64,000 nt of DNA from a virus. Position numbers and translations under genes: made by a program. The notes under the pieces were generated by a model. It saw only the letters and a program-made list of their open reading frames with translations, made no database searches and was not told where the DNA came from. Below, in pieces: positions 4,610 through 60,980 of this stretch. Where the stretch lies: positions 124,001 through 188,000 of IMG/VR virus record IMGVR_UViG_3300018424_000006, one strand, 5' to 3'. Within the stretch, counting starts at the first letter, position 1. Each line of letters opens with the position of its first letter.

Positions 4610-4639
4610 AGCTACTACTCCCATGAGGGAGTAGTAGCT
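4610..4639. terminator. Bidirectional hairpin terminator
   Basis: A perfect 13-bp stem (AGCTACTACTCCC) with an ATGA loop lies between convergent genes. The minus strand continues into TTTATTTTTTT. TTATGCCG follows on the plus side. Confidence 0.9.
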
Positions 4640-4648
4640 ATTATGCCG

Positions 4649-5506
4649 TTAGATTAGGTGAAGGCTATGGATAGTTACTTCACGACCTACTACATCTTCA
4701 GAGATACAGTCAGCTAGGTTAAGGCCTTCCTTACCAATCTCTTCTAGAGTACGATCGAATCTTATTGCAGCGAATTCGTCATCAAAGTTTATCTCTGCTG
4801 CATCCAGAGTACCTTTAGTTATCGCCGATGTAAGATTAGTAATCTCATAGAAAGATAGTACACGAGTAGGAGAAGAGTCTTTGATTCCAGCCAGTAAGAT
4901 AGGACGTCCATTTGACTTAGTAGCAATTGCTATATAGTCAACTAACGTACTAGGGCCATCACCAATTGAGACGCTGAAGTCAGGACAGTTCTCCATCATA
5001 TCAAGTACAGTTTGTACAGAGAATGTTTTATCGCCAACAGCTTCAGACTCACCAAATTCCATAGCTAGAGCGTCTAAAGCAGATAACTTAGAAAGTTGCT
5101 TAAACTTCGGACTAAAGTCTTCAGTTCTCTCTAATTTTTTATCTCCTTTAAACTCTGACACCAAGCGGCTGATTGCAGGCTTCAAACCTTTCAATAAAGG
5201 TAGAAGAGCTTTAACGCCACCTAGGAACTCATCCATTTCTTTACATGCAAAGAAGTTAACAAGAGCCATCCATTGATTAGCCGGAACATCAATCTCCATT
5301 ATTGACCGTACTCCTGTCTCGGTATAGATAAAGGCAATGCGATTGCCTTTATCGTCCGTCTCATCGAAGTTAGTACGAGAATGCATAATCGTCATCAGGT
5401 CATCTAACTCTTTAGAGTCGATGAAGTTTTTAGTAACGTTTACAAAAGCTGCAAGATAGCCATTCATTTCTTCGTTGGTAAGAGTAGTAGTTAGTGCAAA
5501 TTTCAT
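4649..5506 (-). CDS. Unknown protein, 285 aa
   Basis: No family is recognised. It is a soluble alpha/beta-looking protein with no membrane segment and no clear catalytic motif. It stands alone, with an early-type promoter (5576-5583) 70 bases upstream and a strong terminator after it. That arrangement suggests an early monocistronic gene, and such genes in this phage group often code for host-takeover functions. This is inference from layout only. Confidence 0.72.
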   Translation of the reverse strand: MKFALTTTLTNEEMNGYLAAFVNVTKNFIDSKELDDLMTIMHSRTNFDETDDKGNRIAFIYTETGVRSIMEIDVPANQWMALVNFFACKEMDEFLGGVKALLPLLKGLKPAISRLVSEFKGDKKLERTEDFSPKFKQLSKLSALDALAMEFGESEAVGDKTFSVQTVLDMMENCPDFSVSIGDGPSTLVDYIAIATKSNGRPILLAGIKDSSPTRVLSFYEITNLTSAITKGTLDAAEINFDDEFAAIRFDRTLEEIGKEGLNLADCISEDVVGREVTIHSLHLI

Positions 5507-5583: not shown

Positions 5584-5618
5584 GTACCTTTTTAGTCTAG
5601 AACACGGTTTAACGGCAT

Positions 5619-6514: not shown

Positions 6515-6536
6515 TTCTGTTCCTTTTTTGGTTGGT

Positions 6537-7265
6537 TTAAAATAAGAAATGGTTTCGGATATACTTAATGAGTTTATCCACCTCATGACCGAGGTCTTCT
6601 TCTGGACCGTTATTATCCAGAATATAATCGGCACTTGATTTGGAGATATTGAAGCTGGTTGCTGGTTCCAGTTCTTTACGCTCACAAGCATCTACCCAAA
6701 CAGAGAAGTCAAAGATACCTGCTTCTTCAGAAGGTTCAAATTCTTCAAAGTTTCGGTTCCCACAATAAATATCTTCATTGTGTTCAACAAGGATAAGTTC
6801 GAACAATGCTTTCTTATTATGGTAGCAAAACAAACGAATACCTTGATGCCATAGGGGACGGTGGTTGTCGCGATCCTCGAAGCACTCCTTGACTGTTTTA
6901 TAGCCATAGGTGTCTTTCATTAGATCGAACATGAACGCCTCAGCACAGATCTCTGAGGAGCTTCCGAAGGTAAGTCCTAGTCGGTCTCTGATCATCTCAG
7001 CTACCGTATCCTTACCGTGACGCTTATGACCAATAATAGCGATCTTTGGACGACGTACTAAGCGGAAATCAATAGCCTTTGCCCACTCAGGAATCTCAGT
7101 GCTAGGGATTTCTGTAATACGTACAAACTCCGGAATGGCGTCTTCTTCTCGAAACCGTCTCCCTAAGGTGTATTCATATGCACCATGTAAGTACTTGCCG
7201 ATCTTGATATAATACCCGTTCCGAATATTTGCATCGGAAGATCGGACTTGATAGATAGTTAGCAT
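6537..7265 (-). CDS. Probable deoxynucleoside monophosphate kinase, 242 aa
   Basis: This enzyme would transfer phosphate from ATP to dNMPs. Residues 73-90 hold a beta strand and P-loop, IAIIGHKRHGKDT, of the kind seen in T4-type dNMP kinases. An acidic C-terminal half contains the SKSSADYILDNNGPEEDL element that resembles the end of that family, where a D-x-x-I-x-N-x-G strand precedes a long helix. About 70 residues precede the P-loop, which is longer than the core family and may be a phage-specific N-terminal domain. It is followed by the dUTPase gene 22 bases on. Confidence 0.72.
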   Translation of the reverse strand: MLTIYQVRSSDANIRNGYYIKIGKYLHGAYEYTLGRRFREEDAIPEFVRITEIPSTEIPEWAKAIDFRLVRRPKIAIIGHKRHGKDTVAEMIRDRLGLTFGSSSEICAEAFMFDLMKDTYGYKTVKECFEDRDNHRPLWHQGIRLFCYHNKKALFELILVEHNEDIYCGNRNFEEFEPSEEAGIFDFSVWVDACERKELEPATSFNISKSSADYILDNNGPEEDLGHEVDKLIKYIRNHFLF

Positions 7266-10080: not shown

Positions 10081-12183
10081 CTACTGCGGAGGCGGAGTCG
10101 AGTTACCCAACATCATATCCAACGGATGATCTGGTCGATCTTTATAGATATAGGTTGCAGGGTTAGTCAGAATCTCAGCATGGAATCCAAATGCCATAGC
10201 GCCGCCCATAGAACGGTTCTTAATAACATTATGCATTCCCACAAACTGGAAGTCGCCATCTCCAATCGGCATACGGTAATTACCGTTATCCGGATCAATA
10301 CACATTAATGAACGTATAAAGACTTCTACTTCAGAGAAGTTTACGTTAATACGCGTTGCCCGTTCATTGCCGGGGATATCAGGAGGCGTCAAAATATCTA
10401 GGAAAGTTTCCATTGCTTCTTCGGCACTGGCGCAGTCTAGAACAGTTTGCATTTCAGCAGCTTTTGTATCGGTCTTCTTCTCAGGACTACCTAGAAGGAA
10501 GGTCATGATGGTGTTTAGGAAACTCATCATATCTTCGTTTTTACGCGGAGACATTAAGAATGGTTTCGAGAAATCCCATCCTTTCAAATCAAACGTTACG
10601 CTGTTCTCATCAAAAGTCCAACCTCGCTTCTTAGCGAATACTAGGAAGTCTGTAGTTAATGCAGACCCTGTACCGGAAATTTCTGTATCGAACTTAACGC
10701 TACGAACTACCTTGTTGTTTTTATCCAACAATTCTAGCTCAACGTTACGAACGTGAGAAATACGGCTAGGCGTTAGAGTACGGGCATCTTTCGCTTCAGA
10801 TAAGTTACCGATGTTTGAAACTTGTAGGCTAGGAATACGCATTACGTAGCGCAGTTCATCTTTGCCCATTAGTTTATCAACCACCTTACCAACTTTCTCT
10901 TTGGCTTTCTCGATAATGCCTTTCGGCTTATGAGAAGGATCGTTCAATGATACGAGCCATTTCTTTTCTTTGTTCAGGTGCACAAACGCCAATGCTGACT
11001 TAGGCAGATCTAGATACAAAGATTCCATACTTACTTCCAAGTGCTTTGTAGATAACAAGCGCTGGGAAATCTGGGAGCAGGGCCCAATAGATAGGAAATG
11101 GCCAACGTGTACTTTCGGCGGAATGATCAATGCATTGTGACCTAGACAGGTACGACATACATTTTGACCAGTGCCATTTGCACACTTTAATATAGAACGT
11201 ACTTTGATGGTTTCTCCAATCAAGTAGTCCATTGAACTTTCGAACTTCGTAAGCTTCTTGTGTTTCTTGCTTATGAAGTATTTGCCCTGTAGAATCTTCA
11301 GGTCGTCTTTACGTACCGTCCAATTCAAGAACTCTCTCGTTCCACAATCGTCTTCGGCTACATGACCAATCGACCCAACTAAAAGCTGCACTCGACGGTT
11401 AAAGTATTCTGACGTTTGTAGCGGAGCATCTTGCATATACAAGGCTCGCTTAGCAGAACAACTTTCTGTAGCAGAATCATAAAGGGTAGACAGGCCTTCA
11501 CCATAACTCACTTCGATTGGTAACGGGAATGTCTCACCATTAATATCTTTCGTGTAACCACGGAAGTCGGTAGTCTGCGCAATAGAACGACGATCCAAAG
11601 TACCTGACGAAATACCTTTACGGATTTCATTGGTTGCTAATAAAGGATCATTAGATTGCATCAGAGCCAGCGAACTATCGTAAACGTTTTCGATACGTTC
11701 ACCGTTAGACAGATCCATGTTATTGGCTTCTGCGTGATAGTTTTGTTTCGCTGCAACTACCTCTGGGTGAGTGATTGCCTCAAACAAATCTTTAAGGGAT
11801 AACGTATTTACATACGCCCCCAACAAATCCCCAACGTCATTAAACAGATCGTTAGTTGCTTCGTAGATTGCTTTAGCTAGTTTATATACAGTATCGTATT
11901 CCGGATTCGGCATACTGTTATAAACATTCCAAAATACCGTTGACGCGATATTTAAATGGTGTCCGCCTGTATAAGCACCGCCTTCCAATACATCTTCACA
12001 TAAAGGATTTGCACGATTGCTAAACAAGGCATAAAGACGCCAATAATACCACGTCAAGATAATACGACGGGAGGTAGTTTCCACCTCGCCGTCTTTGCAA
12101 GAAATGGTATACTTACCTTTCTGCATATTCCAGACATCGTCTTTAGACATTCTGACAATTTCTTTTGCCTGAATATAAAGCAT
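10081..12183 (-). CDS. RNA polymerase beta'-like subunit, C-terminal part, 700 aa
   Basis: This is the C-terminal half of a beta'-like subunit carrying the trigger loop and adjacent regions. YGEGLSTLYDSATESCSAKR, then YFNRRVQLLVGS, then EDDCGTREFL follow the trigger-loop region of bacterial beta'. A VCRTCLG ribbon and GPCSQISQRLLSTKHLE match the conserved segment after it. The ATG has GGGGAG five bases upstream. The gene starts 12 bases after the stop of the beta C-terminal gene, so the two are co-transcribed from the promoter at 14278. The pairing and gene order suggest the non-virion enzyme that transcribes later phage genes in the nucleus; that assignment is inference. Confidence 0.85.
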   Translation of the reverse strand: MLYIQAKEIVRMSKDDVWNMQKGKYTISCKDGEVETTSRRIILTWYYWRLYALFSNRANPLCEDVLEGGAYTGGHHLNIASTVFWNVYNSMPNPEYDTVYKLAKAIYEATNDLFNDVGDLLGAYVNTLSLKDLFEAITHPEVVAAKQNYHAEANNMDLSNGERIENVYDSSLALMQSNDPLLATNEIRKGISSGTLDRRSIAQTTDFRGYTKDINGETFPLPIEVSYGEGLSTLYDSATESCSAKRALYMQDAPLQTSEYFNRRVQLLVGSIGHVAEDDCGTREFLNWTVRKDDLKILQGKYFISKKHKKLTKFESSMDYLIGETIKVRSILKCANGTGQNVCRTCLGHNALIIPPKVHVGHFLSIGPCSQISQRLLSTKHLEVSMESLYLDLPKSALAFVHLNKEKKWLVSLNDPSHKPKGIIEKAKEKVGKVVDKLMGKDELRYVMRIPSLQVSNIGNLSEAKDARTLTPSRISHVRNVELELLDKNNKVVRSVKFDTEISGTGSALTTDFLVFAKKRGWTFDENSVTFDLKGWDFSKPFLMSPRKNEDMMSFLNTIMTFLLGSPEKKTDTKAAEMQTVLDCASAEEAMETFLDILTPPDIPGNERATRINVNFSEVEVFIRSLMCIDPDNGNYRMPIGDGDFQFVGMHNVIKNRSMGGAMAFGFHAEILTNPATYIYKDRPDHPLDMMLGNSTPPPQ

Positions 12184-16254: not shown

Positions 16255-17700
16255 TTACATTTGGAATTGTCCAGCCAAGTGGATTGCAGGCTGAAATGTA
16301 GAGTCAATTGCTAGACGTAAGTCAGATGCAACGTTGTTTAGTTGGTCTTGGCTAACGCCTACTACCGGAGTAGTGATTGAGTTGCAGAAAGCTGGAGCAC
16401 TAAATACGCACCATTCTTTACCGTCGATACTTAGATTAATATCAACGTTACCCATCAAGTTACACGACACGTTGATAGTAAACAGCGTGCAATTTGGAAC
16501 AACACAGGCGGCCATGATTTCATCAATCAATACTCGCTCAAGTGCCATCATTTTCATTGGGTTAATTGGAACTTCTGAAAACATGGAAATCGGATCGCTC
16601 GTAGGAGCCAGGGCCGGAGAATTTGTCATGTTTTGATTACTCATCTCGAAGCTAAAGCCGGAGATAAAGAAGTCGCCAAGAATGGTTGGTACTAAGTGAG
16701 TCAGGGTATAAGCAATCTTAGTTTCGATTGTACTCATGCCCCAGTCCATTGAATGCTGAGCCATATCAACGATTTCACCATTACCCAAGAATTGGATTGC
16801 ATAGGTGCCATCGTTGTAGTCTGGCCAAAGCTGCTGAACGTCACCAAGCGTTACTGTACGAGTTGTAGCGTATCCACAACGACGATCCATTTCAGTTAAG
16901 AACTGGGAGTTGGTGTGAGTCGCTTCACGTAAGTTTTCTGCTGCGTGATTACAAGTAAAGTCTTCTGAGCCATAACCGCAGTCGTCGTCATTCATAGCCA
17001 TGTTATAGCTGTTCAACACCCCACTCAGGAATTGACCAGAACGAACATTGCCTGTTTTAGACATACAAACTTTGTTATTCAAAGAAGTACGAGAATCCAC
17101 CACATTGGCATCATACATTGTCAAAGAACCCTGACCCATGGTGAGTAGAGTATCCTGGGGACGCATACCTACGCCATCTACTTGGCCATGTCCTGCCAAA
17201 GCAATTGGATTCAATACTTGTGATAACTTACGATCACTAGTCGCATGGTTTTCAATGCCCATTGCGGTCTGGGTCGCCATGATTTCATAAGGCATGAAAC
17301 CATTAAACCAGATGAACATGCCCGGATCTAGAAATCCGTTATGGGAGGCGTCTACTTTATCCGTAAAGCCAGTTAGCATTTCATATGCCTTACCAGTTGG
17401 ACGCGAAACTTCAATAAGCATGTAAACTGCAAACCGGCGTTCTTGCCAACCATTAGCAATGTCCAGTTGTCCGGAGGATTGTACTCTAGGCGTGAATAAT
17501 TTATTCGCTACGCCGTTTAAAGCAGGAGCAGATAAACTACCAGAGCCGTCCATTACACGGGAACTAATATTTTGCAATTCTAGCTCGATCTCTGAATTGA
17601 ACGTAGTGTCAAAAGGACGGTAGTGCTGTTGTCCTTGAGCAGCCTGCTCAACAAAGAACATACGCTTTAGTGTTAACGTAGGCTGGTAAAAGTGATTCAT
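16255..17700 (-). CDS. Unknown conserved phage protein, possibly virion, 481 aa
   Basis: No catalytic motif is recognised. The sequence is rich in Asn, Met and Gly with many short beta-like stretches, which fits a structural protein. A TTG seven codons upstream opens the frame further, but the ATG at 17700 has AGGA nine bases before it and is preferred. It lies 21 bases after the preceding gene and 12 before the next, so it is the middle gene of a three-gene unit starting at the promoter at 19188. Confidence 0.7.
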   Translation of the reverse strand: MNHFYQPTLTLKRMFFVEQAAQGQQHYRPFDTTFNSEIELELQNISSRVMDGSGSLSAPALNGVANKLFTPRVQSSGQLDIANGWQERRFAVYMLIEVSRPTGKAYEMLTGFTDKVDASHNGFLDPGMFIWFNGFMPYEIMATQTAMGIENHATSDRKLSQVLNPIALAGHGQVDGVGMRPQDTLLTMGQGSLTMYDANVVDSRTSLNNKVCMSKTGNVRSGQFLSGVLNSYNMAMNDDDCGYGSEDFTCNHAAENLREATHTNSQFLTEMDRRCGYATTRTVTLGDVQQLWPDYNDGTYAIQFLGNGEIVDMAQHSMDWGMSTIETKIAYTLTHLVPTILGDFFISGFSFEMSNQNMTNSPALAPTSDPISMFSEVPINPMKMMALERVLIDEIMAACVVPNCTLFTINVSCNLMGNVDINLSIDGKEWCVFSAPAFCNSITTPVVGVSQDQLNNVASDLRLAIDSTFQPAIHLAGQFQM

Positions 17701-17721
17701 AATGGGTTTTTCCTGTTTCAA

Positions 17722-19326: not shown

Positions 19327-19998
19327 TTAACCTACTAGAGTTTCTGGTAGTCCAGAACTTCCAAAGGTTTCAGTATTAGCATCGGCTTGTTGGGCCTTCT
19401 TACGATTCATGAATTCTTCACGCTCTTTACGAAGGATTCGTTCATCAACATGATTCGTTACTAACACTTGGTTTGCTACTGCATCGATTACATTTAACCA
19501 TGACTTAGCTACAATCGTTGAGCACAATGTACGAGTCATTGGCTCGCCATTATAAGTTAGGTTATACCACTGACTATTAAGTAGCGGGAATCGAGGAGTC
19601 GGTCGACCGGGTACGTCCAGTTCAATATAGATAACGCCAGTTTCTGTACGGACAATCTTTACTTCAGATTGCTTGATTCGTGAGCCCGGAGCTTCCGGAG
19701 AAACCGTATTATTAACTACTGAATAAGAACAAGGGGTTTCGGTGCGAATAACTTTACCTAGTAGTTCTTTGAAGGTCTCAAAGATTACCGGGTCCATATT
19801 TGCACTAATTGCTTTCTTGCTCTTTACTGGGTCGGTTGCTTCTTCTGGGTGGTTTAACCAACTTTCCAAGCGTACGTTATTGTTAATAATCCGTACGCCT
19901 AGAATAGGAGACTTTTTACTGTCTCCCCATGGGTATCCCCAGATTTTTAACTTCTGCTTATCTAGAGCAGAATTGAAACGATTTTCTAGGTTTGACAT
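19327..19998 (-). CDS. Unknown protein, 223 aa
   Basis: No family is recognised. The central part is beta-rich (KIVRTETGVIYIELDVPG) and the C-terminus is a charged helix (DERILRKEREEFMNRKKAQQ) followed by a flexible tail. It is the last gene of a unit that runs from 22416 through the Mre11-like nuclease. That suggests, without proving, a DNA-metabolism role. Confidence 0.7.
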   Translation of the reverse strand: MSNLENRFNSALDKQKLKIWGYPWGDSKKSPILGVRIINNNVRLESWLNHPEEATDPVKSKKAISANMDPVIFETFKELLGKVIRTETPCSYSVVNNTVSPEAPGSRIKQSEVKIVRTETGVIYIELDVPGRPTPRFPLLNSQWYNLTYNGEPMTRTLCSTIVAKSWLNVIDAVANQVLVTNHVDERILRKEREEFMNRKKAQQADANTETFGSSGLPETLVG

Positions 19999-20011
19999 AA
20001 TGGGTTTCCTG

Positions 20012-23523: not shown

Positions 23524-26175
23524 TTATGCCGCTAGGTTAGAACCACGACCTTCAATCTCGTAGTCTTCCTCTTCGATCCAGTTATGTATAGTACCTACCG
23601 TAGCATCAGGCAACTGAATATTTTTATTCAACTTACCTGGGGATGCTGGGTTGTGGATACCATAGTGTGGTCTTAGATTCTCTACCATCTCCCGTTCTAC
23701 TCCAGAAGGGATTAGGCAGCCAGACATTTGGTCACCATCGAACTAATATCTTCGACAAGTATCGCTACTACTTGCCCGTTCTCTTATGAACTGCTTCAGG
23801 TTTTCCCTGAATGTAGAGACTATATCTTCATCCTCATGTACTCCATTTGTACGTAAAGGAGACCCCCATTCGATCCGCATTCGGACCACTTAGTCGTTGA
23901 ACCTATCTCATATTCTCGAAAGAACTTAGAGACTTCGCTGCGCCGGTTCTCCATCTATCCGTAAGGGTTTTTACCATGCCTAACGCTTCCATTACTGGGT
24001 TAGGTATTACACTCTATTTCTAGGTGTAAGTGGTACCTTACGGCTTTAGTGAGTTCCCGCAATTAGAGGGTTTGTTTTCTAGTAAATTACTTTACTAGGC
24101 AGACTTTTTAAACATAAAGCCTTGATAAGGCTCCATTGTCTTTATGCAGCGAGCAATGCGTTTTGAATTTATACCTGTAACTTTCTCCGCATGACGGATA
24201 GAGTTATACGTTTCTTCATTATCTCCATTAATGGAAACTACTTTGAAACGCGGAGGCATTTTATTCCTAGAGTAATTCACCAAGTTTCCATCTATATCAA
24301 CTAGATGGACTTGGTATCCGCAGTACTCCATTCCATTCCCATTCTTATCAAGAGCTTCAGAGAAGCTTGCAGGATTTCGGTCAAGGAATGTTGCTGCGTC
24401 AGCTTGGCTGACATGGCTAAACTTTTTACCTGTTTTCATGCATGTAAGTACAACAAAATTGTTATCCTTACGAAGTCCATGTTTAAAGGCATGTTTAGAA
24501 TTCTCTGCATAGCTAACCCATTCAAGATTAGCAGGTTTGTTATTTCGCTTGTCTCCATCAATATGGTTGATGAGAGGCTTGTCTTTTAGATTTGGTATAA
24601 AGGCTAATGCAACTAGTCTATGATGTAACTCATTCTTTCCATTTACTCTAACAGTAGAGTATCCGGCGGATTGAGTTTCTGACGTAGCTACTTTACCTCT
24701 AGGACCAAATACTTCTAGAGTTTCTTTCGAAATAACATATCCATCAAACCCCGGTATAAAGTAAAGGTTATCTTTACAAACCAATGGTTTAGTGAAATAC
24801 AGAGAGCCGTCAACAAATACCACAAAGCGATGAAGCCCTGTTGGCAGTTCAGGCATATGTTCCATACAAAGATCTTGGAAACACTTATCGTTGGAATCAC
24901 TACTATTTTCCACGACTTAGTTCCATATGTTATTGGTTTATCTGCGTTGGGCGCTGCAATAGCTAGAACGCTAATTTCGGAAGAGTTTCGACTAAACCCT
25001 GTAATACGGAACAACTGAGTTGAACCATATGCTAGTGTAGGATAACGAGTGAACGTTACCCAGAAGCCTTCTCCATTTGGAGTCTCTTTCACAAGCTGAT
25101 GCAGTTCGTCCCATAGGAATGAGTCGATTTTCGCACTATGCTTTATGATGTAGTCGTAGGCATCTTTTTCACTATAGCCATGCTTGTTCATAAGTCTATT
25201 TATTAAATGGACTCGGAACAGTACACAGCCTTCTGAGTAGGGAATAGTTAGTTCTTCATAATGATGGCGATCAGTACGAGAAGTAATTGTGGTACGGAAG
25301 CTGAAAGCTACACGGCTACCATAAATGGAGCTTCGGAACCAACCTGATTTAGATGCCAATATCTCTTTGAGAATATGGGTATAGTAGTCTGCTAAGTTAA
25401 CAGATACTTGGGTCAGTTTGTTTCCTATGCGCCGCAGGTCACTTTCATCTCGCAATTCAATCACTTTAAAGATTGCTTCACGAGCATGTCGCAAGGAGCT
25501 ATCTGAATAGTCTCCCATAGCGGTCTTCTCGATTACAAAAGCGATCTTATTTGGAATCGGCAAATACTTGCACGTAAGCTCGTTTCTGTAACGATGAAAG
25601 AACGTAATATACTCTTTATGAGTATTACGCCCTCGTAGACGTTTATCGATTAAATCAATCACACGATCGAAATCTTCGATGGTTTCATTGAGCCCCCGCC
25701 TTAAACCCATGTCATCAATTTGATTCTTGAGTCGAATGGCTTGGGAATTGGTTGGTTCTGGTGCTCGATAGTTCGTATTACAAAGATACTCAATACCGGA
25801 CCAAGAGCCTTGCTGCTTAACCGTTAAGGCTGACGATAACATCTCCCAAACAATGGGAGTGAACATGCCGTGGATGCCCTCTGGCGCACGTATCCAGAGA
25901 TTACTCTCAATAGGTCGAGTGTAATCGTAATCTACCGTCTGATTGCATTTAGGGCATGTCATACCAACAAAGGTACTGTTTGCCAAATAGCCGCAACCGC
26001 AGGTAGGAACACTGTTCAGCGTTACCTCATCCTTACCATAAGTAGTAAGGATTAAATTTTCAAGGGTCTCTTGATTTAATTTAGTAGATAAGTCGAAGTC
26101 ATTAAGTATGACTGGCTTAAATGGTAAAGCTTGAAAGAGTCTGTCTGGGTTTACTAAGGATAGCGTTTTTGCCAT
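23524..26175 (-). CDS. RNA polymerase beta'-like subunit, N-terminal part, split by a group I intron (484 aa after splicing)
   Basis: Exon 1 is 26175-24940 (412 codons) and exon 2 is 23742-23524 (72 codons). Exon 1 begins with a zinc ribbon (C59, C61, C74, C77) and ends with IAAPNAD. Exon 2 begins FDGDQMSGCLIPS. Joining them restores NADFDGD, the absolutely conserved beta' motif whose three Asp residues bind the catalytic Mg. Without splicing the frame runs on into the intron and yields a 486-residue protein without the active site. Exon lengths are whole codons and the join leaves no spare base. The gene is downstream of the shell-protein gene. Its partner beta' C-terminal half is likely the gene at 10081-12183. 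Confidence 0.9.
23743..24939 (-). ncRNA. Group I self-splicing intron in the beta' active-site codons
   Basis: The intron is 1197 bases. The base before the 5' junction is T (the end of an Asp codon) and the last intron base is G, both as group I splicing requires. The core is visible on the minus strand. TTGCGGGAA (24052-24062) fits P4. GTTCAACGACTA (23891-23902) and AAGATATAGTC (23818-23828) are the two P7 strands, pairing GACTA with TAGTC, and are typical group I R and S elements. I could not place the internal guide sequence with confidence. The intron carries an HNH endonuclease gene in its 5' part. phiKZ itself has an intron in another polymerase gene (71-73), so polymerase genes are known targets. 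Confidence 0.88.
24095..24913 (-). CDS. Intron-encoded HNH homing endonuclease, 272 aa
   Basis: The order is an N-terminal NUMOD4-like segment (about 51-75), an HNH core and a C-terminal NUMOD1-like helix-turn-helix (YNSIRHAEKVTGINSKRIAR). The HNH core runs from HHRLVALAF (H97, H98) through INHIDGDKRNN (N116, H117) to NLEWVSYAEN. The protein should cut the intronless beta' gene at or near the insertion point and so spread the intron. The frame opens with GTG at 24913, 26 bases inside the intron. The ATG at 24865 is an alternative that leaves more room for the P1-P2 helices. Related intron endonucleases in phiKZ-type phages have been shown to damage the polymerase genes of co-infecting phages. 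Confidence 0.85.
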   Translation of the reverse strand: MENSSDSNDKCFQDLCMEHMPELPTGLHRFVVFVDGSLYFTKPLVCKDNLYFIPGFDGYVISKETLEVFGPRGKVATSETQSAGYSTVRVNGKNELHHRLVALAFIPNLKDKPLINHIDGDKRNNKPANLEWVSYAENSKHAFKHGLRKDNNFVVLTCMKTGKKFSHVSQADAATFLDRNPASFSEALDKNGNGMEYCGYQVHLVDIDGNLVNYSRNKMPPRFKVVSINGDNEETYNSIRHAEKVTGINSKRIARCIKTMEPYQGFMFKKSA

Positions 26176-26269: not shown

Positions 26270-28096
26270 TTAGTAGAAGTAAGTACGGCTGTTATCTTGC
26301 CAGTTAGTGTTATTGCTAACATATAGGCCAGCAGGAGCATGGATGTTAGCCATGTCAGGCGCGGCATTCCAGTGGCTAGCAACTAACTGAGGCACAAGGT
26401 TAGTGAACCCTTCGGTACGCATAGTCATGCCCGCAGCGTGGATAGCTTGAAGCATTGCGTTGATTAGGTTCGGGTGGAACGTTAGACGGAAGATGATACC
26501 GCGCTGTTCGAAACCACCTGCTAGTAACTGCTTAAGGTTCTCACGGTAGTCGTGACAAGTCTTGTCGTTAGCAGTAGTAGGCTGAGAAGCCTGCTGGTAG
26601 ATTTCCATTAGCTGCGCATCGCCTTTAGAAAGCTCAAGAGTTTTCAAGTAGTCGATGTCACGGATATCACGAGTTACGCCGTCTTCGTCAACGTAAGTAC
26701 CGTCAACACGCTTAGTGGCACCTTGAAGCATGATTGGGTTTTGACCCCAAATGCCTTTGAACTTACCGTTGGTGAAACGATCGATTTCATTGATGATCAT
26801 TTCGTTCGCACGAGCTTGCGCTTGTGGATCACGATTTAACCCGGCAGCATCCATGAAGAAACGCTGTACCCAGTGTAGTCGAGAACCAACCTGGAAGTCT
26901 AGAGAAACAACTACACCTTCACGGAACAAGTTCGGAGAGATGGTGTATGGAGTTACTGCACCTTGTGCTACAGGAGCACCAATGTGCTGCGGAGTCAACT
27001 GGAAAGGCTTAGCGTCTTTCTTAGCTGGGATACCGCCGCTTGCTAGAGCTGTGTAGTCAAATTCGTAACCAAGGTTAGCTAGAGAGGCTTTACGGCTAGA
27101 GGCAGTGTTGTAAACTGACAATAGGTGATCGCCCTGTACTAAGTTAGCAATAGATACTAAGCTTAGAAGCTGACCAGATAGACCTTCACGAGTCACTTCC
27201 GCGCCCATGTTAGACATATCGGTTAGGACAACATGCTTCATGTAAGGAGGAGCAACTTTGTTCATGGCTGGGTTTTGGCCAACGCTGGTACGAATGATGT
27301 CAACGAAACCAGAAGCTTTTGCTAACTGCATGTTTACATCTTTCTTGTGCGGATCGTTAGACTTCTTGGCAGCTTCAGTAGTTAGCTGTAGAGTTGCAGT
27401 GAAGTCAGTGCTGATTGGTAGCCCGGCATTGTTAACATCGCCAGCACCCGGATTAACTTCTAGCTTGTTTACTAGAGTTAGTGGTACAGATGCAGATTGG
27501 ATATCGCCAATAGTTGGAGAGCTTAGTTCCAATACGTTTTCAGCACAAGCTAGTACCGCAGATTCAACTGTGCTGCGTGCAATACGCTCATCAGTGAAGT
27601 CAACAGTTTTAGGAACCATGCAGAAGCCGATAGTACGAACTTTAAGGCCGTCTTTATCAACTACTTTAGAAACCGCAGAAGCCACTTTGTCTTTTAGAGT
27701 GTCAGAGAACAACTCAGTAACTAGCGGATCGATTTCAATCTGGGTGCCCATGTTTTCAACGAACTTAGATTCTAGAGTATTGTCGCGCAGGAACTTCTCT
27801 AGAAGTAAGCAGAAAGTGAACGCCGTGTCACCTTTAATTAAATAAACAGCGAGAGTAGGTATGGCCAATTCATCGCTAATTAGTGCCAAGCCGCCGGAAA
27901 CCTGAGAGTTCTTCGCACAGAAGTCTTGAAGTAAAACTTCAGCCTGCTCATTGAAAATTTTCAAAGAGTCGGCTAGACCTTGACTTGAAGAAACAGTGCG
28001 CATTAGCATGTCTTCAATAGAACCGCCAAATGGAGACGCTGGAGTCTCGATTGGGTTGGCTTGTGGCTGCTGGGTATCGTTACCAGTATGGATCAT
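26270..28096 (-). CDS. chmA: Probable phage nuclear shell protein (chimallin), 608 aa
   Basis: Chimallin assembles the protein shell that surrounds replicating phage DNA in phiKZ-type infections. I base the call on three points. The length (608 aa) is close to the known shell proteins of around 600-630 residues. The gene lies between the tubulin gene and the polymerase genes, as phiKZ gene 54 does. It also forms its own unit with early-type promoter and terminator. The sequence is soluble, two-domain in appearance, with flexible N-terminal (TGNDTQQPQANPIETPAS) and C-terminal (NNTNWQDNSRTYFY) tails of the kind used to link neighbours. I cannot align it to a reference here. The main alternative is a virion structural protein. 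Confidence 0.66.
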   Translation of the reverse strand: MIHTGNDTQQPQANPIETPASPFGGSIEDMLMRTVSSSQGLADSLKIFNEQAEVLLQDFCAKNSQVSGGLALISDELAIPTLAVYLIKGDTAFTFCLLLEKFLRDNTLESKFVENMGTQIEIDPLVTELFSDTLKDKVASAVSKVVDKDGLKVRTIGFCMVPKTVDFTDERIARSTVESAVLACAENVLELSSPTIGDIQSASVPLTLVNKLEVNPGAGDVNNAGLPISTDFTATLQLTTEAAKKSNDPHKKDVNMQLAKASGFVDIIRTSVGQNPAMNKVAPPYMKHVVLTDMSNMGAEVTREGLSGQLLSLVSIANLVQGDHLLSVYNTASSRKASLANLGYEFDYTALASGGIPAKKDAKPFQLTPQHIGAPVAQGAVTPYTISPNLFREGVVVSLDFQVGSRLHWVQRFFMDAAGLNRDPQAQARANEMIINEIDRFTNGKFKGIWGQNPIMLQGATKRVDGTYVDEDGVTRDIRDIDYLKTLELSKGDAQLMEIYQQASQPTTANDKTCHDYRENLKQLLAGGFEQRGIIFRLTFHPNLINAMLQAIHAAGMTMRTEGFTNLVPQLVASHWNAAPDMANIHAPAGLYVSNNTNWQDNSRTYFY

Positions 28097-28164
28097 AGTA
28101 CTATAAACCTTTTATTCGAATGGTTGGTTAACGAGATGTGATAGATAGTATCACTCTCAATATA

Positions 28165-34639: not shown

Positions 34640-35641
34640 TTAGAAAACGAAACCGTCTTCTTCTTCACCGGCTACTTCAGTAGTCTTAGAAGCTTCTTCT
34701 ACCAATGCAGATGCCGCACGAGTAAAGTCTGCTACTTTTTCTTTTAGCTTGGCGATACGAGGCTCACGCTGAACCGCTGTAGTCGCGAAGTGTAGAGATA
34801 GCTTTTCATCTGGCATACTGTCCAGAATCTCTTTAGGGTAGTAACCTACAGTTGAGTACAACTGGCTACCAGAGATTTGCTCAGAATCTGCATTAGGAAT
34901 AACCGATGCAGTACTGATCATCTTGCCCTTTAGAGTGTCTAGACGACTGACGTCAGACGTAATAACGACATCCACTAGTTGTGGAGGTACGCTAGTTACT
35001 TTGTTATAGCAGATGAAGTTAGCAATGTCTGCACGGTCTAGCTCAAGGTGTTGTTCACCCATCAATAGAGCCATGCGAGTTGCATCGTCAAGAACGCGAG
35101 CATCAACCTTTGTACGAGTATTGATGTTACGACTACCTTCTTCGCCATTAGTGATGTTCTCATAATAGCTAATAAGGATTGGGTTCTTGGCGGTCTTTGA
35201 AGCTAGGTTCTGAAGAGTAGCTAGAGTCTTCAAAGTGTTGTCAGTTTCTTTTGCAGAGATAGTGCTACCCACTACTAAGCAAATTGCTGGTACCTGACGA
35301 CGCGCTAGTTCTGCAGCTACTAATGGGCCAATAACAGAACCAGAACCACCAGAGGTGCTGAACAGTACAAGGTTAGTAGTACCCGGTTTGAAAGTTTTCA
35401 ACATTTCAACCACTTGGTCATATGCAGCTTGGTGAGCCACTGCACGATTCTTGCCTGCTCCAGACATACCTGCTACCACGAAGGTATTGGCATTGTCTTC
35501 TTCGGTTACGTTTGAATGGCTGGTATCCAAGAAAGTCTTTTCAACTGCTGGATAACCTACAGCGTTAGGGACAGTCAATTGCTTGGCCAAGTTAATGCCA
35601 CAACCACCACAACCGTAAATACGAAGTTTTGCTTTTTCCAT
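34640..35641 (-). CDS. phuZ: Phage tubulin/FtsZ-like GTPase PhuZ, 333 aa
   Basis: PhuZ forms dynamic filaments that centre the phage nucleus and carry capsids to it. The protein has the nucleotide-binding N-terminus LRIYGCGGCGINLAK (6-20), a second glycine loop VVAGMSGAGKN (55-65) and the tubulin signature LFSTSGGSGSVIG (93-105, in place of GGGTGSG). The length is right for the family. The C-terminus is an acidic tail ending EEEDGFVF, the kind of tail that makes the lateral filament contacts in PhuZ. It has its own promoter (35723) and terminator, so it is an independent early unit, as expected. Confidence 0.93.
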   Translation of the reverse strand: MEKAKLRIYGCGGCGINLAKQLTVPNAVGYPAVEKTFLDTSHSNVTEEDNANTFVVAGMSGAGKNRAVAHQAAYDQVVEMLKTFKPGTTNLVLFSTSGGSGSVIGPLVAAELARRQVPAICLVVGSTISAKETDNTLKTLATLQNLASKTAKNPILISYYENITNGEEGSRNINTRTKVDARVLDDATRMALLMGEQHLELDRADIANFICYNKVTSVPPQLVDVVITSDVSRLDTLKGKMISTASVIPNADSEQISGSQLYSTVGYYPKEILDSMPDEKLSLHFATTAVQREPRIAKLKEKVADFTRAASALVEEASKTTEVAGEEEDGFVF

Positions 35642-35814: not shown

Positions 35815-36597
35815 ATGAACGCTATTGACTATGCTTTGAATAATCTTTTTCAACGTATACCTTCTGAACTAATCACTCAGGCTTTTGGTACTTCTCCTGT
35901 CTATGGTTATATTGATAATCGTAGCTTAGAGCAGCGAGTTCGTGAAACCGTAATTGATTCTTTTGTTTCTATAGACTGCAATTTAGTAGGTGGACAACAG
36001 GTAATGCTTCCGATGAGTACTTTGCCAGGCAAGCCTGTGGAAACTGGATGGATTTATGAAATACCTTTAGCCATGACTCAAGGAAGAAAGATTACTTCTG
36101 TATTGGGAGTAGAGTATTCGTCTGGCAATGGGAACCTTTCTAATCCTGATATGAATGCAATGGGTAGAAGTTTAATGGATATGGTAAACTTCGCTACAGG
36201 GCCTTCCGGAGGCGTCGCTAGCGGTAACGTCATGCTGGTGGGACCTAATACTGTTTTCGTTGGATCGAATATGGGAACCGGTAGCTTGTACCTGCGGTGC
36301 ATGATTGCGAATGATTCACAGATGGCTAATCTGAATCCACGTGCACTTCCTATCTTTGCTCAGTTATGTGAGTATGCTTGTAAAGGAATGATTTACAATG
36401 CATTACGAATTAAGCTTGGTGAAGGTTCGATTACGGGTGGTTCTTTAAATAGCTACTTGAATCAGATACTGGATGAATACTCTGATTCTTTTACGTTGTA
36501 CAATGAACTACGTGACGGTAAGTGGAAGAAGGTTTCTATTCTTGCTGATGACTTCACTCGACGTGAGTTGACTAGAATGTCATTACCTAGAAGCTAA
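35815..36597 (+). CDS. Unknown protein, possibly virion, 260 aa
   Basis: A single plus-strand gene between the tubulin promoter and an isolated terminator. The ATG has GAGGA eight bases before it. The middle is rich in Gly, Ser and Asn (GPSGGVASGNVMLVGPNTVF), which suits a structural protein. The C-terminal third is helical. No family is recognised. Confidence 0.7.
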   Translation: MNAIDYALNNLFQRIPSELITQAFGTSPVYGYIDNRSLEQRVRETVIDSFVSIDCNLVGGQQVMLPMSTLPGKPVETGWIYEIPLAMTQGRKITSVLGVEYSSGNGNLSNPDMNAMGRSLMDMVNFATGPSGGVASGNVMLVGPNTVFVGSNMGTGSLYLRCMIANDSQMANLNPRALPIFAQLCEYACKGMIYNALRIKLGEGSITGGSLNSYLNQILDEYSDSFTLYNELRDGKWKKVSILADDFTRRELTRMSLPRS

Positions 36598-36637: not shown

Positions 36638-36952
36638 CTTTATTCTGTTTTAAATTTTCTAAATGTAAATCATATAGATATTAATAATTAATTATAATAT
36701 TAATTTAATATTTATTTTTATTCTTTAAAATTACTTAAAAAATTTATTCCCTTATATTATAGACAGTAATATATTTGACGAGGAACGAGGCAAATATATA
36801 TACATTTAGTAGTCAATATCAGAACTACTAAAAATAGACCTATTTTAAGCTACTTTCTATCTTAGGATAGGAGGTAGTTATTATGCTGTTTAAAAATACA
36901 AATAGGTATTAGGGTATGAATTAAACATAAACCAACCAAAAGGAATTTAGAT
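36638..36952 (+). promoter_or_regulatory. AT-rich upstream region of the four-gene tandem cluster
   Basis: No convincing gene lies in these 315 bases. The left half is extremely AT-rich (36655-36760) and probably holds a promoter. A 12-bp hairpin with two wobble pairs (36850-36861 with 36866-36877) resembles the phage's terminators and is followed by TTATTATGC, as they are. A tiny frame MLFKNTNRY (36883-36912) follows an AGGAGG buried in that hairpin. A GTAATATA at 36766 lacks the rest of the early-promoter consensus. Confidence 0.5.
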
Positions 36953-37519
36953 ATGAACTTCTTTAAGTTATTATGGAAACGGATAGTAATATCCATTCTA
37001 GTGGATAGACCTTTCTTTGCTTTCTCAAATGAGATAGTGGAAAGTTTCTATCGGGGTTATAAGTCAATAGGTCGTACTAGGTTTACCCAAGAGCTGGATA
37101 GGCTCTTCGTGGCAAAGAGAGCTAAGATTGATCCTAAGTACACAAGTCCTAAAGCTTTAGGTTCTTATTCAGCCTTAGAAAGATTGAAAACTTTAAACTA
37201 CTGGGCTGCTTATCACACTAACCTATTTGCAGACGCATGGGCGCTTATGTCTAAAGAGCCATTGTTTTTCTCTATCTTACCTCTAAGCAAGACTCGATAC
37301 GAAGACGAAGATAGTCTACAGGACTATCTAGAAGACTCTAGAGATCTTTTTACGTTTTTGGATATAGAAGATCTATGGAGCAGTAGTCCTAGACTAGATT
37401 TATATAACCGCCTAGTCGCTTACAAGGAAGTCTATGAAGAACGTGGTCAGTTAGAATACTGGCAACGAATCTATGATATGCTAAAACCAAGATTGATTGA
37501 GGTGGGTTATGACCTATAA
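36953..37519 (+). CDS. Tandem-family protein 1, 188 aa
   Basis: First of four adjacent genes of near-equal length (180-188 codons). Each starts with a short basic amphipathic helix. Here it is FFKLLWKRIVISILVDRP. Later there is a Trp-containing helix with a Leu-rich stretch (FADAWALMSKEPLFF) and an acidic segment (YEDEDSLQDYLEDSRD). The four seem to be diverged copies of one gene. No known family is recognised. The ATG has AAGGA eight bases upstream and overlaps the next gene by 11 bases. Confidence 0.72.
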   Translation: MNFFKLLWKRIVISILVDRPFFAFSNEIVESFYRGYKSIGRTRFTQELDRLFVAKRAKIDPKYTSPKALGSYSALERLKTLNYWAAYHTNLFADAWALMSKEPLFFSILPLSKTRYEDEDSLQDYLEDSRDLFTFLDIEDLWSSSPRLDLYNRLVAYKEVYEERGQLEYWQRIYDMLKPRLIEVGYDL

Positions 37520-38066
37520 GAATTGGTTCAAACGAAAGATCCTAAGTTTCTTTCTTGATATTCCTATGGACTATGTTCCGATGCGTTATGCAGACGCAGC
37601 ATTTGCACATCTGACTAATGGTCCTTGGGAAACCAGAAAGTATCGTGCTCGGATGTATTTAGCTCAGTGTAGAAGTATTCCGTGCAAAGACTCTACCCCG
37701 GATGTACTTTATTTATATCCGTTCCATGAGGTACTTACCTATCTTGCCGATAATCAATACGACATGGAGAAGGCCAAGTTCTTATGGAAAGATAAGAACA
37801 TGGCCAAACACTGGATGGAAGTCTTTAGGGTATATAAGCTAGCGGATGGTACATATTCCAATAGTAATTTTATTTCGAATTACTATCTTAAGTTGGCAGG
37901 CTATATCGATATGGGTACTCCCGGGTTTTTAGAAGCGCTGGATGACTTTATTATGAATTTGAATGTAGTAGCCTACTCTGTCCAGGATGCCGATAAACAC
38001 GTTGCTCTAGTTCAGGAGATTGAAGTTTATAAGAAGCTACAATCTAAGCTTAGGGGCGAATCATGA
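37509..38066 (+). CDS. Tandem-family protein 2, 185 aa
   Basis: Second of the four. The frame opens at a TTG at 37497, but the ATG at 37509 follows GAGGTGG and is preferred. The N-terminus, YKNWFKRKILSFFLDIP, parallels protein 1, and the central AKFLWKDKNMAKHWMEV parallels its Trp helix. It overlaps the next gene by an ATGA. Function unknown. Confidence 0.72.
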   Translation: MTYKNWFKRKILSFFLDIPMDYVPMRYADAAFAHLTNGPWETRKYRARMYLAQCRSIPCKDSTPDVLYLYPFHEVLTYLADNQYDMEKAKFLWKDKNMAKHWMEVFRVYKLADGTYSNSNFISNYYLKLAGYIDMGTPGFLEALDDFIMNLNVVAYSVQDADKHVALVQEIEVYKKLQSKLRGES

Positions 38067-38626
38067 TCAGACTAAAGCGCTATATACTAGAGGTCGTCCT
38101 ACAACGGCCTCTAGAGTCGCTCACGGATAAAAACATCCTTGAGATATGGCATTACCTTCCTGATGGCGTAAAAGGTCTTATGGGGGTTTACAGCGCCCCT
38201 AAGGAATGGATTAGGAATCTTTATTTCCTAGGACTTCTCCCTATAACGGAATTTACGATCTCTGAGATTCATGATTTCTTTATAAATCCAATGTGTGATA
38301 TCCATCCAGATATTCCGGGCGAACCTATACTTCCATATTACTTATCTGAAGCAGCGAAGCATAAACGCAAAGTAGAGATCTTTAAAGACTTCTGGGAAAC
38401 CTGTCCTCCAAAGACTTTATTTGCATTCTTTATGAGTCCTCATCAAAGTACTCATAAGCTGCTGTTAGAAAATGTAATAAGGGAGACGGGTAATGGCCGC
38501 TACGATTATCAGAAGTGGCTACTGAAGTATGGGAAAGATTATAGTCATATTTTCCATCAGTTACCGATGCCTTTTATACATGTCGATTTAATAACTAAGT
38601 TGGAGTTTGATTTAAGACGTAAATAG
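38063..38626 (+). CDS. Tandem-family protein 3, 187 aa
   Basis: Third of the four, starting within the ATGA overlap and with AGGGG upstream. The N-terminus is IRLKRYILEVVLQRPLESL, again a basic helix followed by R-P. The central EIFKDFWETCPPKTLFAFF corresponds to the Trp helix of the others. Function unknown. Confidence 0.72.
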   Translation: MIRLKRYILEVVLQRPLESLTDKNILEIWHYLPDGVKGLMGVYSAPKEWIRNLYFLGLLPITEFTISEIHDFFINPMCDIHPDIPGEPILPYYLSEAAKHKRKVEIFKDFWETCPPKTLFAFFMSPHQSTHKLLLENVIRETGNGRYDYQKWLLKYGKDYSHIFHQLPMPFIHVDLITKLEFDLRRK

Positions 38627-38684
38627 GTTGTTAATCCTATGTATTAGCTTGTTCATTAATTAACCTGAAAAAGGAGAAAAGGTT

Positions 38685-39227
38685 ATGAGCTTTAAAATCT
38701 CAATGAAAACTTTGTTTATAAAGTTTTTACCATTAGCGTTGTTGTCTGGGTTGTCTCGACGCTTAACTGCTGCGTTGTTTATTGGTCCTCGCGGTTTTAA
38801 ATTAGATAACGAAGGTCTTGATATGGCAATCGCTGCTATCAAGAAAACGCCTCTGTCAATCTTTCTGCGTCCATTTGAATTACTAGAGAAGCTTTATCTA
38901 GCTAATAAGCTAGAGGCTTCTCAATTGTTCAATGAAGAGATTGCAAACTTTACTGAAGAATCCTACATCGCCATTATTAACCGCTACCTGACTCTGAATC
39001 CAGAGCGGGCTAGAATGATATGGAACTGGACCTCTTTAGATCGTCAATTACATATTCTTTTGAATAGCCATTTCTTGTCTGCTAAGATCAGCAACCTTGG
39101 CGATGTAATTGCAAACGAGCCGTTGATTAAAACTGTTTGGGATGCAAACACCCCATTCAAGAAAGGTGAGCGTCAGCGTGCTAAGAACTTAATCCGCAGA
39201 ATGTATCCGCATCTGGATTTGACTTAA
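38685..39227 (+). CDS. Tandem-family protein 4, 180 aa
   Basis: Fourth and most divergent copy, 58 bases after the third and with its own strong site (AAAAGGAG). The N-terminus is SFKISMKTLFIKFLPLALL, more hydrophobic than the others. The central ERARMIWNWTSLDRQLHILL parallels the Trp helix. A region full of hairpins follows downstream. Function unknown. Confidence 0.72.
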   Translation: MSFKISMKTLFIKFLPLALLSGLSRRLTAALFIGPRGFKLDNEGLDMAIAAIKKTPLSIFLRPFELLEKLYLANKLEASQLFNEEIANFTEESYIAIINRYLTLNPERARMIWNWTSLDRQLHILLNSHFLSAKISNLGDVIANEPLIKTVWDANTPFKKGERQRAKNLIRRMYPHLDLT

Positions 39228-39298
39228 AATAAACAGATGACCTTATACTTTGTAATTACTATTGATCCAGTCGTTAACTTGTTTGGTAGTGGTTCTTT

Positions 39299-39770
39299 AA
39301 AAATTCGATTTTAAATCAAATTTTAAATTAGCCCTTAGGAACAATATTGATAGTTCCGTGCCTTTTATGGTGGGCAATAAGACTAACAGTAAAGAGACTC
39401 CTGTTAACTGGTCCTCGTTTTCCCGGGTTACACTGACCGTTAGTCTTCTCCAAATTTACGTCTTCTTGTCGGATCTGCTGGGTGTCCGACATTTAGGTTG
39501 GAAAGGTATGAAGGCCGCTATAAGCTTTAGCGTTTTTTTGCGGCTTCTCCCACTCGTGCTGCTTTGTTACTTACGCTCGTTATTGGCAACGTCCTTTTGG
39601 TTGGTTCGTCGTGCCAGAATAAGCTATTCCGGATATTTTTCTAATGGGTTTATATCCGTGCGACTCACAGCGGCCTTTATACCGATCCTTCTCCACTTCT
39701 CCCTTACCCGCACAGACTTTGTCCTCACTGCAGTCTTCGGATTGCAGTGGGGCGTTTTCTGCCGTTAAAA
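39299..39770 (+). ncRNA. Candidate structured non-coding RNA, about 470 bases
   Basis: The 599 bases between 39227 and 39827 have no gene I can support. Instead they hold a dense series of pairings. These are GGAAC/GTTCC (39338-39357), AGACTAACAGT/ACCGTTAGTCT with one mismatch (39380-39446), TGTCGGA/TCCGACA (39467-39491) and CGCTA/TAGCG followed by seven T (39516-39539). GCCGC/GCGGC closes around the last. Further on come GAATA/TATTC (39617-39629), CGGATAT/ATATCCG (39630-39658) and a 10-bp hairpin with a TTCG tetraloop (39726-39749). The GC content looks higher than in the surroundings. Strand is assumed plus from the TTCG loop and T run. A 136-codon frame crosses the region, but it lacks a ribosome site. 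Confidence 0.55.
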
Positions 39771-42334: not shown

Positions 42335-42419
42335 GAATTCAAATATTCTAAAAATACATATCCTACTTAGCGTATGAAGTAGTAACCAACCAAATTAAAA
42401 AAACCTACGGAGAAGGAAA

Positions 42420-42917
42420 ATGATTACATATGTTGAAGGCGATGTCTTCGATAAGAAACTCCTTAAAGAAAATGACTTCTTTTTACATCTAGCCAATTGC
42501 CATAAAACAATGGGTGCGGGTGTAGCTCTGGGAGTGAAGCATTTTATGCCGGAGCTATATCAGGCTGACCTAAATGATTCTCGAACCCCAAAACAGAGGC
42601 TGGGTTCTTATAGTACCGCCAGCGTTACTCTGACTGAAAGTATCCCTAGTATGAGAATTCCTGCCGAAAAAATAACGGGTGTCAATATTTATGGCCAGTT
42701 TTATTACGGTAGAGAACAAACCTACGTACGGTATAAAGACTTAGAGGCAGCACTTTTAGCTTTCCATAAATCTTTCGAGTTGAAAGAAACCTCTAGAATC
42801 ATCATGCCTATGATGGGTTCCGGTCTAGCTGGCGGTAGTTGGAAACGTGTTGAAGAAATCATCGGACGCACTTTCCCATTGCAAAAAGTAACAGTAGTTA
42901 TTAAGAAGGATCAGTAA
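42420..42917 (+). CDS. Macro-domain protein (ADP-ribose binding or hydrolase), 165 aa
   Basis: Macro domains bind ADP-ribose and often remove it from proteins or nucleic acids. The family pattern is clear. It starts ITYVEGDVFD (a strand then G-D), then FLHLANCHKTMGAGVALGVK (the N-x-x-x-x-M-G-x-G-V-A loop, about 21-40), and MPMMGSGLAGGSWKRVEEII near the C-terminus (the G-x-G-L-x-G-G-x-W loop). It is a complete single domain. It opens a plus-strand unit of three overlapping genes. A plausible job is to reverse ADP-ribosylation by a host defence toxin, but this is inference. Confidence 0.88.
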   Translation: MITYVEGDVFDKKLLKENDFFLHLANCHKTMGAGVALGVKHFMPELYQADLNDSRTPKQRLGSYSTASVTLTESIPSMRIPAEKITGVNIYGQFYYGREQTYVRYKDLEAALLAFHKSFELKETSRIIMPMMGSGLAGGSWKRVEEIIGRTFPLQKVTVVIKKDQ

Positions 42918-44845: not shown

Positions 44846-44875
44846 GAATTGAAATGTTTTCCACAACGGCAAAAA

Positions 44876-44904
44876 ACTCCATGCCCCAACTACGGACATG
44901 GAGT
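44876..44904 (-). terminator. Hairpin terminator
   Basis: An 8-bp stem (ACTCCATG) with a 13-base loop is followed on the minus strand by TTTTTTGCCG. It ends the unit that contains the gene at 44913. Confidence 0.7.
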
Positions 44905-60486: not shown

Positions 60487-60905
60487 TAAACTTGCATCAC
60501 TGCGATAAGAACGACGATAATAACGCGGATAGCCAAAGTCTCAATAAGCGGAATTATAAAATCTTTGTACTCGCGTAGATCATCTTTCATGTTGCGCGCT
60601 TTGATTAATATGGAATAGACAACGTCAAGTAGAACACTAATAATTAAAAGTGCGGCTACTTCGCCCAGCGCACTAGTCGCACTAAGATTAGCTAAAGCGG
60701 TAATCGCACCGCCGATCAATAACGTATAGCCGTGATCACGAATATTTGAATAGCCTAAGCGACGGACGAAGTTTTCATTTTTTGTATCAACAACTTGATC
60801 GACATACGCTTTCGTATAAGCACGATAAAGGCTAGAACGCGTCTTAGTAAAAGTCCAGACCATAACCGCTAGTAGAAATAGCGAAATAGCGAAATTAGTT
60901 TCCAT
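60486..60905 (-). CDS. Small membrane protein, 139 aa
   Basis: The frame opens upstream at 61013, but the ATG at 60905 has AAGGA nine bases before it. The first 18 residues are a hydrophobic segment. Others lie around 60-80, 87-105 and 118-138. It is the first gene of a two-gene unit of membrane proteins after a hairpin. No family is recognised. Confidence 0.68.
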   Translation of the reverse strand: METNFAISLFLLAVMVWTFTKTRSSLYRAYTKAYVDQVVDTKNENFVRRLGYSNIRDHGYTLLIGGAITALANLSATSALGEVAALLIISVLLDVVYSILIKARNMKDDLREYKDFIIPLIETLAIRVIIVVLIAVMQV

Positions 60906-60980
60906 GATTATTTTCCTTTTGGTTGGGATAATTGAGTTATACAGGCTATAAGAAAAATAAATAAAAAAAGAAAGAGGGTA

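Follow-up and report, generated by a model that had tools for sequence, protein, structure and literature searches.

A candidate structured antisense RNA with two leader-complementary loops in a nucleus-forming phage

The region between positions 39299 and 39770 of the phage DNA analysed here seems best read as a structured non-coding RNA of about 430-540 bases. The new feature is a pair of adjacent 15-nt apical loops, each complementary to a different leader motif peculiar to this phage, and these loops point to antisense translational regulation rather than to an ornate RNA of the nanocage type. We computed the fold, the terminator, the complementarity and the enrichment of leader motifs; transcription, processing, pairing in the cell and an effect on translation are what we infer. 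Our tentative interpretation, to which we give slightly less than an even chance, is that the + strand encodes a lineage-specific structured antisense RNA, either 3'-UTR-derived or free-standing, which would control the translation of a phage regulon.

The window, i.e. the whole stretch of 64,000 bases that was analysed, corresponds to bases 124001-188000 of a virus record of 219,819 bases. By its gene content the source is a phage of the nucleus-forming, phiKZ-like type, as the window encodes chimallin (26270-28096, -), PhuZ (34640-35641, -) and a DUF7484 protein (35815-36597, +), together with DNA polymerase and RNA polymerase subunits. Even the closest known relatives, 80 in number from the alignment of DNA polymerase, share only 31-38% identity in this enzyme. 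Upstream of the structured region lie four adjacent + strand genes (36953-39227; starts at 36953, 37497, 38063 and 38685) for proteins of 180-189 aa that belong to no family. The preliminary description had placed the region directly behind a tandem gene family; the four genes are indeed there, but no significant similarity among them was detected. A short leader ORF, MLFKNTNRY (36884-36913, +), follows a perfect AGGAGG site just 5' of gene 36953.

All the elements named in the preliminary description, which had noted dense hairpins in 39299-39770, were recovered, with stem probabilities mostly of 0.8-1.0, in a single-sequence fold of 39335-39768. This segment is the minimum extent of the candidate RNA as set by fold, codon scores and terminator (+ strand), and it may belong to a 3' UTR that starts at 39228. 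From 5' to 3' it contains a hairpin GGAAC/GTTCC (39338-39357; pair probability 0.89), the long-range stem AAGACTAACAGT/ACCGTTAGTCTT with one mismatch (39379-39390/39436-39447), a hairpin TGTCGGA/TCCGACA (39467-39491; 0.83-0.94), the CGGATAT stem (39630-39636/39652-39658) and the TTCG hairpin (39726-39735/39740-39749), the latter of 10 bp including one G-U pair and extending to 13 bp (39723-39752). The higher GC content was likewise borne out, with 46.5% for 39335-39768 against 39.8% and 39.5% for the flanking genes. The strongest element had been overlooked: a 15-bp stem, 39505-39519/39669-39683 (pair probability 0.89-1.0), closes a core (39505-39683) that contains both of the putative antisense hairpins. 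The internal terminator-like element, a small hairpin CGCTATAAGCTTTAGCG plus T7 (39516-39539, +), shares bases with this closing stem, so that the two are mutually exclusive.

The fold z-score of 39335-39768 was -3.35 for the + strand and -4.31 for the - strand, and none of 100 dinucleotide shuffles folded as well on either strand. Most of this signal sits in the core (39500-39690), with z-scores of -3.9 (+) and -5.4 (-). Such folding is not unique, however, since 300-nt windows of the phage average a z-score of -0.8 (sd 1.6), with 4 of the 62 lying beyond -4; as other windows fold about equally well, the folding by itself makes no case.

At its 3' end the region carries a terminator of the phage's own type (39723-39765, +), recognized by the signature 13-bp UUCG hairpin, the T-run CGTTTTC and the sequence TGCCGT. 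Among the strong intergenic hairpins of the phage, TGCCG was found within 15 nt downstream of 18 out of 134 and upstream of 2, and the IMG/VR relatives share this signature (downstream of 121 out of 860 hairpins vs. 18 upstream). Other examples of hairpin, T-run and TGCCGT are located at 4610-4650 (+) and 44870-44904 (-) of the window. In the 12 strict cases the hairpin overlaps a stop codon or starts no more than 17 nt from one, with the exception of 39723-39752, which is located 495 nt past the last stop; no phage-type terminator was detected between the last of the four genes (stop at 39227) and 39723. Judging from this terminator, a + strand transcript would end at about 39760 after about 500 non-coding bases. 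Three of the four discriminating wobble pairs in the main stems also favour the + strand, and the flanking genes lie on the same strand. We found no promoter for the RNA on either strand, and hence it could form the 3' UTR of the four-gene operon or be transcribed on its own. No promoter class emerged for the + strand, and the strong class that this phage does have (24 sites, all on the - strand) has no site in the region. The promoter-like motif of this class is GTTCTAGnn...AATTCTATATTACTTTAATG, and all 24 good sites lie on the - strand even though 82 of 221 genes lie on the + strand; the sites within the window are at 5587, 14289, 19199, 28176, 35734, 42338, 44849, 48185 and 61997, with 15 more in the record.

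Hairpin 1 (39584-39616, +; arms 39584-39591/39607-39616; stem probability 0.85-0.97) displays the 15-nt apical loop UCCUUUUGGUUGGUU (39592-39606), complementary to leaders with AACCAACC(AAAAGGA). The complementarity was first detected by a repeat search, which paired 39592-39606 with 36930-36944 (+). The latter segment, AACCAACCAAAAGGA, contains leader bases and the Shine-Dalgarno sequence upstream of the first tandem gene (ATG at 36953) and complements loop 1 perfectly over 15 nt; the 15 complementary bases are exactly the apical loop. A match of this length was reached by 1 of 1000 shuffles compared with 65 leaders and by none of 260 real segments; exact 14-nt leader matches arose by chance elsewhere in 7 of 260 segments. 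The hybrid energy was -22.4 kcal/mol, against opening costs of about 3.3 and 5.2. As a point against the antisense reading, partial weak pairing was predicted inside the loops of hairpins 1 and 2.

Over 9-13 nt, loop 1 is also complementary to other leaders, including those of the genes for chimallin, which forms the nuclear shell (AACCAACCA, 28121-28129, -; start at 28096), a DarG-like macro-domain protein (AACCAACCAAA, 42384-42394, +, an 11-nt complement; gene 42420), a MazG-like protein (AACCAACCAAAA, 6526-6537, -; start at 6514) and a 139-aa protein (CCAACCAAAAGGA, 60914-60926, -, a 13-nt complement; start at 60905). The motif AACCAACC or ACCAACCA precedes these four genes, that for a 535-aa protein of the polymerase-associated family phrog_2943 (named 'polymerase'), and others. 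ACCAACCA is the top-enriched 8-mer outside Shine-Dalgarno sequences in the phage leaders (8 of 199; 0.40 expected), and it was found in 1 of 1595 leaders of relatives. A similarity of 45 nt between the leaders of 36953 and 42420 was striking at first, yet reached only E 0.17 when taken alone and was set aside. The macro-domain gene (42420-42917, +) is related to DarG, a DNA ADP-ribosyl glycohydrolase antitoxin, and is possibly a counter-defence gene.

Hairpin 2 (39630-39658, +; stem probability 0.73-0.94) surfaced from a blind listing of all leader matches. Its 15-nt apical loop UUUUCUAAUGGGUUU (39637-39651) is complementary to AAACCCATTA, which is present in five leaders, including that of an RNA polymerase beta-type subunit (phrog_3148, 941 aa), presumably of the virion type. 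In two - strand leaders the motif extends to the A of the start codon (17700-17709 for gene 16255-17700 and 19998-20007 for gene 19327-19998). The core of the motif, AACCCATT, was found in 5 of 199 leaders of the phage and in none of 1595 leaders of relatives.

Counted post hoc, on the same genome from which the antisense idea was derived and with motif-sharing leaders that are not independent of one another, five leaders carry a perfect complement of at least 12 nt to the RNA. The corresponding mean was 0.45 for shuffles (p 0.0005), and 3635 genome windows gave 0.44 (p 0.0006). The locus complements seven common leader 9-mers, the top count among 7296 windows of 472 nt on both strands of the record; the best other windows have four, and at least some of these lie opposite leaders. 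All seven 9-mers map to the two loops or their borders. Nothing comparable was found on the - strand of the region, nor was a comparable locus found by the leader-complement search in four relatives and phiKZ, and the duplex energy of the whole RNA with the leaders was no better than that of shuffles. We also considered a general anti-Shine-Dalgarno RNA. CTTCTCC occurs four times on the + strand, far in excess of chance, but averaged over all leaders the duplex energy is the same as for shuffles, and no such role is claimed.

The proposed mechanism would start with an RNA that cleavage releases from the long 3' part of the four-gene operon transcript, or that is transcribed separately, and whose core, closed by the 15-bp stem, displays the two 15-nt hairpin loops. 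The partners of loop 1 would be the AACCAACC(AAAAGGA) motifs that precede the upstream operon and about seven to nine other genes; those of loop 2 would be the AAACCCATTA motifs of about five additional leaders. Where the pairing covers the Shine-Dalgarno sequence or the start codon (genes 36953, 60905, 17700 and 19998 of the - strand, and perhaps 84810 in record coordinates), it should block initiation; where it lies 25-36 bases upstream (chimallin, the macro-domain gene, the 535-aa protein and the 941-aa RNA polymerase subunit), it could block, protect or activate. The leader sites vary from -36 to -9, and thus occlusion of the Shine-Dalgarno sequence fits only some of the leaders. As a speculation, the terminator-like hairpin at 39516-39539, which excludes the closing stem, could halt transcription before the loops are made. 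Such pairing might let the RNA turn several key viral genes off or on jointly. More doubtful is the wider proposal that a two-headed antisense RNA co-ordinates a post-transcriptional regulon, the loops having co-evolved with two lineage-specific leader motifs placed before core genes (the chimallin shell, the virion-type RNA polymerase subunit, and the RNA polymerase-associated, MazG-like and DarG-like proteins) and before its own neighbouring operon. Nucleus-forming phages time transcription with their own RNA polymerases; to our knowledge, little is known of translation control in their infection cycle. If the proposal is true, one RNA would tie the production of nuclear shell and RNA polymerase subunits to one switch. 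Each loop-leader pair is an exact prediction that can be mutated, and the TGCCGT terminator signature combined with leader motifs offers a practical route to other non-coding transcripts in nucleus-forming phages.

The same complementarity could serve only in cis. A long structured 3' UTR that pairs with its own first ribosome-binding site, or that just protects the mRNA from decay, would agree with the lack of a terminator between 39227 and 39723 and with the finding that the longest match, of 15 nt, is to the first leader of the same operon, and it has precedents in icaR (PMC3868564) and OppZ/CarZ (PMC7398697). The other leaders would then match through resemblance to the first one. We regard this as unlikely, because loop 2 fits a different motif, absent from the first leader of the operon, and because distant leaders on the opposite strand match by 11-13 nt. 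Still less likely, in our view, is a decoy RNA from the opposite strand, which in the manner of CsrB/RsmY would soak up a translational regulator or the initiation machinery that binds phage leaders. The - strand of the region is purine-rich, and GGAGAAG occurs on it four times within 39299-39770 (0.045 expected), a clustering seen nowhere else in the record; the most frequent Shine-Dalgarno hexamer of the phage is GGAGAA. A repeated binding motif in loops is a trait of CsrB/RsmY, and in the - strand loops the leader motifs would stand in sense orientation. The z-score of the core, -5.4, is better than that of the + strand; this and the purine bias count against the + strand reading. In the region, however, the - strand contains neither a promoter of the 24-member class, all of whose sites lie on that strand, nor a phage-type terminator, which leaves - strand transcription unsupported. 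The canonical terminator and the wobble pairs described above favour the + strand, on which the flanking genes also lie.

Two further explanations dispense with regulation, and we consider both of them improbable. The stems could be incidental to a real gene of foreign codon usage for a multi-helix membrane protein of 136 aa or shorter. At 155 codons its open frame exceeds what shuffles allow (p about 0.001), a length that stays unexplained by the antisense-RNA reading. The product is hydrophobic, and helical in an AlphaFold model of such low confidence (pLDDT 65) as to be uninformative. The preliminary description saw no coding frame with a ribosome site, and the 136-aa ORF indeed starts with GTG and lacks a Shine-Dalgarno sequence. 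Its synonymous-codon score of -0.25 is below those of all 42 genes tested (lowest -0.15), no homologues were found, and the phage-type terminator falls within the frame, 5' of the stop codon, so that its message would end without a stop. Since codon usage of the genome, ribosome site and homologues all speak against it, the ORF is probably non-coding. Alternatively, the region could be DNA or RNA that is structured without having a regulatory role, for example a recombination relic or a terminator-rich spacer, with leader matches due to chance. The absence of conservation, the good folding of other phage windows and the chance 14-nt leader matches noted above in 7 of 260 segments are compatible with this; the enrichment that the two loops show jointly (p about 0.0005, top of the record) is not readily so.

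The antisense RNA proposed here resembles known systems in its general kind only, and no family membership is claimed beyond that. The c4 antisense RNA of phages P1/P7, which regulates ant, is structured and pairs around the ribosome-binding site through complementary sequences probably located in loops (as described in the review PMC12197685). Here, too, both complementary stretches are exposed, in the predicted fold, in 15-nt apical loops on strong stems; unlike in c4, two loops match two leader families before about a dozen genes. OppZ and CarZ are autoregulatory sRNAs derived from 3' UTRs by RNase E processing, as shown in vivo (PMC7398697). Like these, the candidate phage RNA lies behind an operon, on the same strand and ending at its terminator, and is complementary to the leader of its own operon, here over a perfect 15 nt; it differs in its large size and in being known from sequence alone. 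The icaR mRNA has a long 3' UTR with an anti-Shine-Dalgarno motif that pairs with its own 5' leader (PMC3868564). The candidate 3' UTR of the phage likewise has such a stretch against its own leader, but in contrast to the single cis target of icaR it also matches leaders elsewhere in the genome. The PHIKZ298 ncRNA of phiKZ is derived from a 3' UTR, has two stems in about 100 nt and no known target (PMC8545117). The two would have in common a nucleus-forming phage, the 3' end of a transcript and a terminal terminator hairpin; their places are not homologous, and the RNA described here is larger.

In the preliminary description ROOL, GOLLD and HEARO had been suggested as possible classes. ROOL and GOLLD are found near tRNA genes and form homo-oligomeric cages. 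The Rfam scan gave no hit at the gathering score and, at E<=10, only three unrelated sub-threshold hits in the region, while tRNA genes are absent from the whole 64-kb window. The candidate phage RNA shares with ROOL and GOLLD (659 nt and >800 nt; PMC12286853) the character of a large structured RNA of phages and prophages; it is shorter, and it lacks the Rfam match, the neighbouring tRNA gene and the conservation. A structured non-coding RNA is thus retained as the best reading, whereas ROOL, GOLLD and HEARO are not.

Searches of phages, IMG/VR relatives and five relative genomes revealed no homologue of the RNA, and hence covariation lends no support. Neither the RNA nor its neighbouring genes occur in the 80 relatives, DNA similarity searches in near and distant phages gave nothing useful, and scans of viral contigs with the downstream protein, PhuZ, a single DNA polymerase and a 20-mer of the RNA, as well as of genome contigs, gave no match. 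A covariance model built from the single sequence of the core matched the - strand of the relative L096/L131 (25.6 bits, E 0.0003), very probably by chance: the match lies antisense within an intact RNA polymerase subunit gene and has lost both target hairpins, its nucleotide score of 127 barely exceeds the maximum from 1500 random segments (118), and the protein profile of that subunit gene fits the region no better than shuffles.

The Intron_gpI model matched nowhere in the structured region and only at 23794-24126 (-) of the window, where a group I intron (Rfam RF00028, 74 bits) lies near an RNA polymerase subunit gene, with a 272-aa ORF close by (24095-24913). A second orphan non-coding stretch of about 380 nt (about 11230-11610, +, in record coordinates) has no complement to the common leader motifs and ends in a large hairpin and TTTTTTGCCGT.
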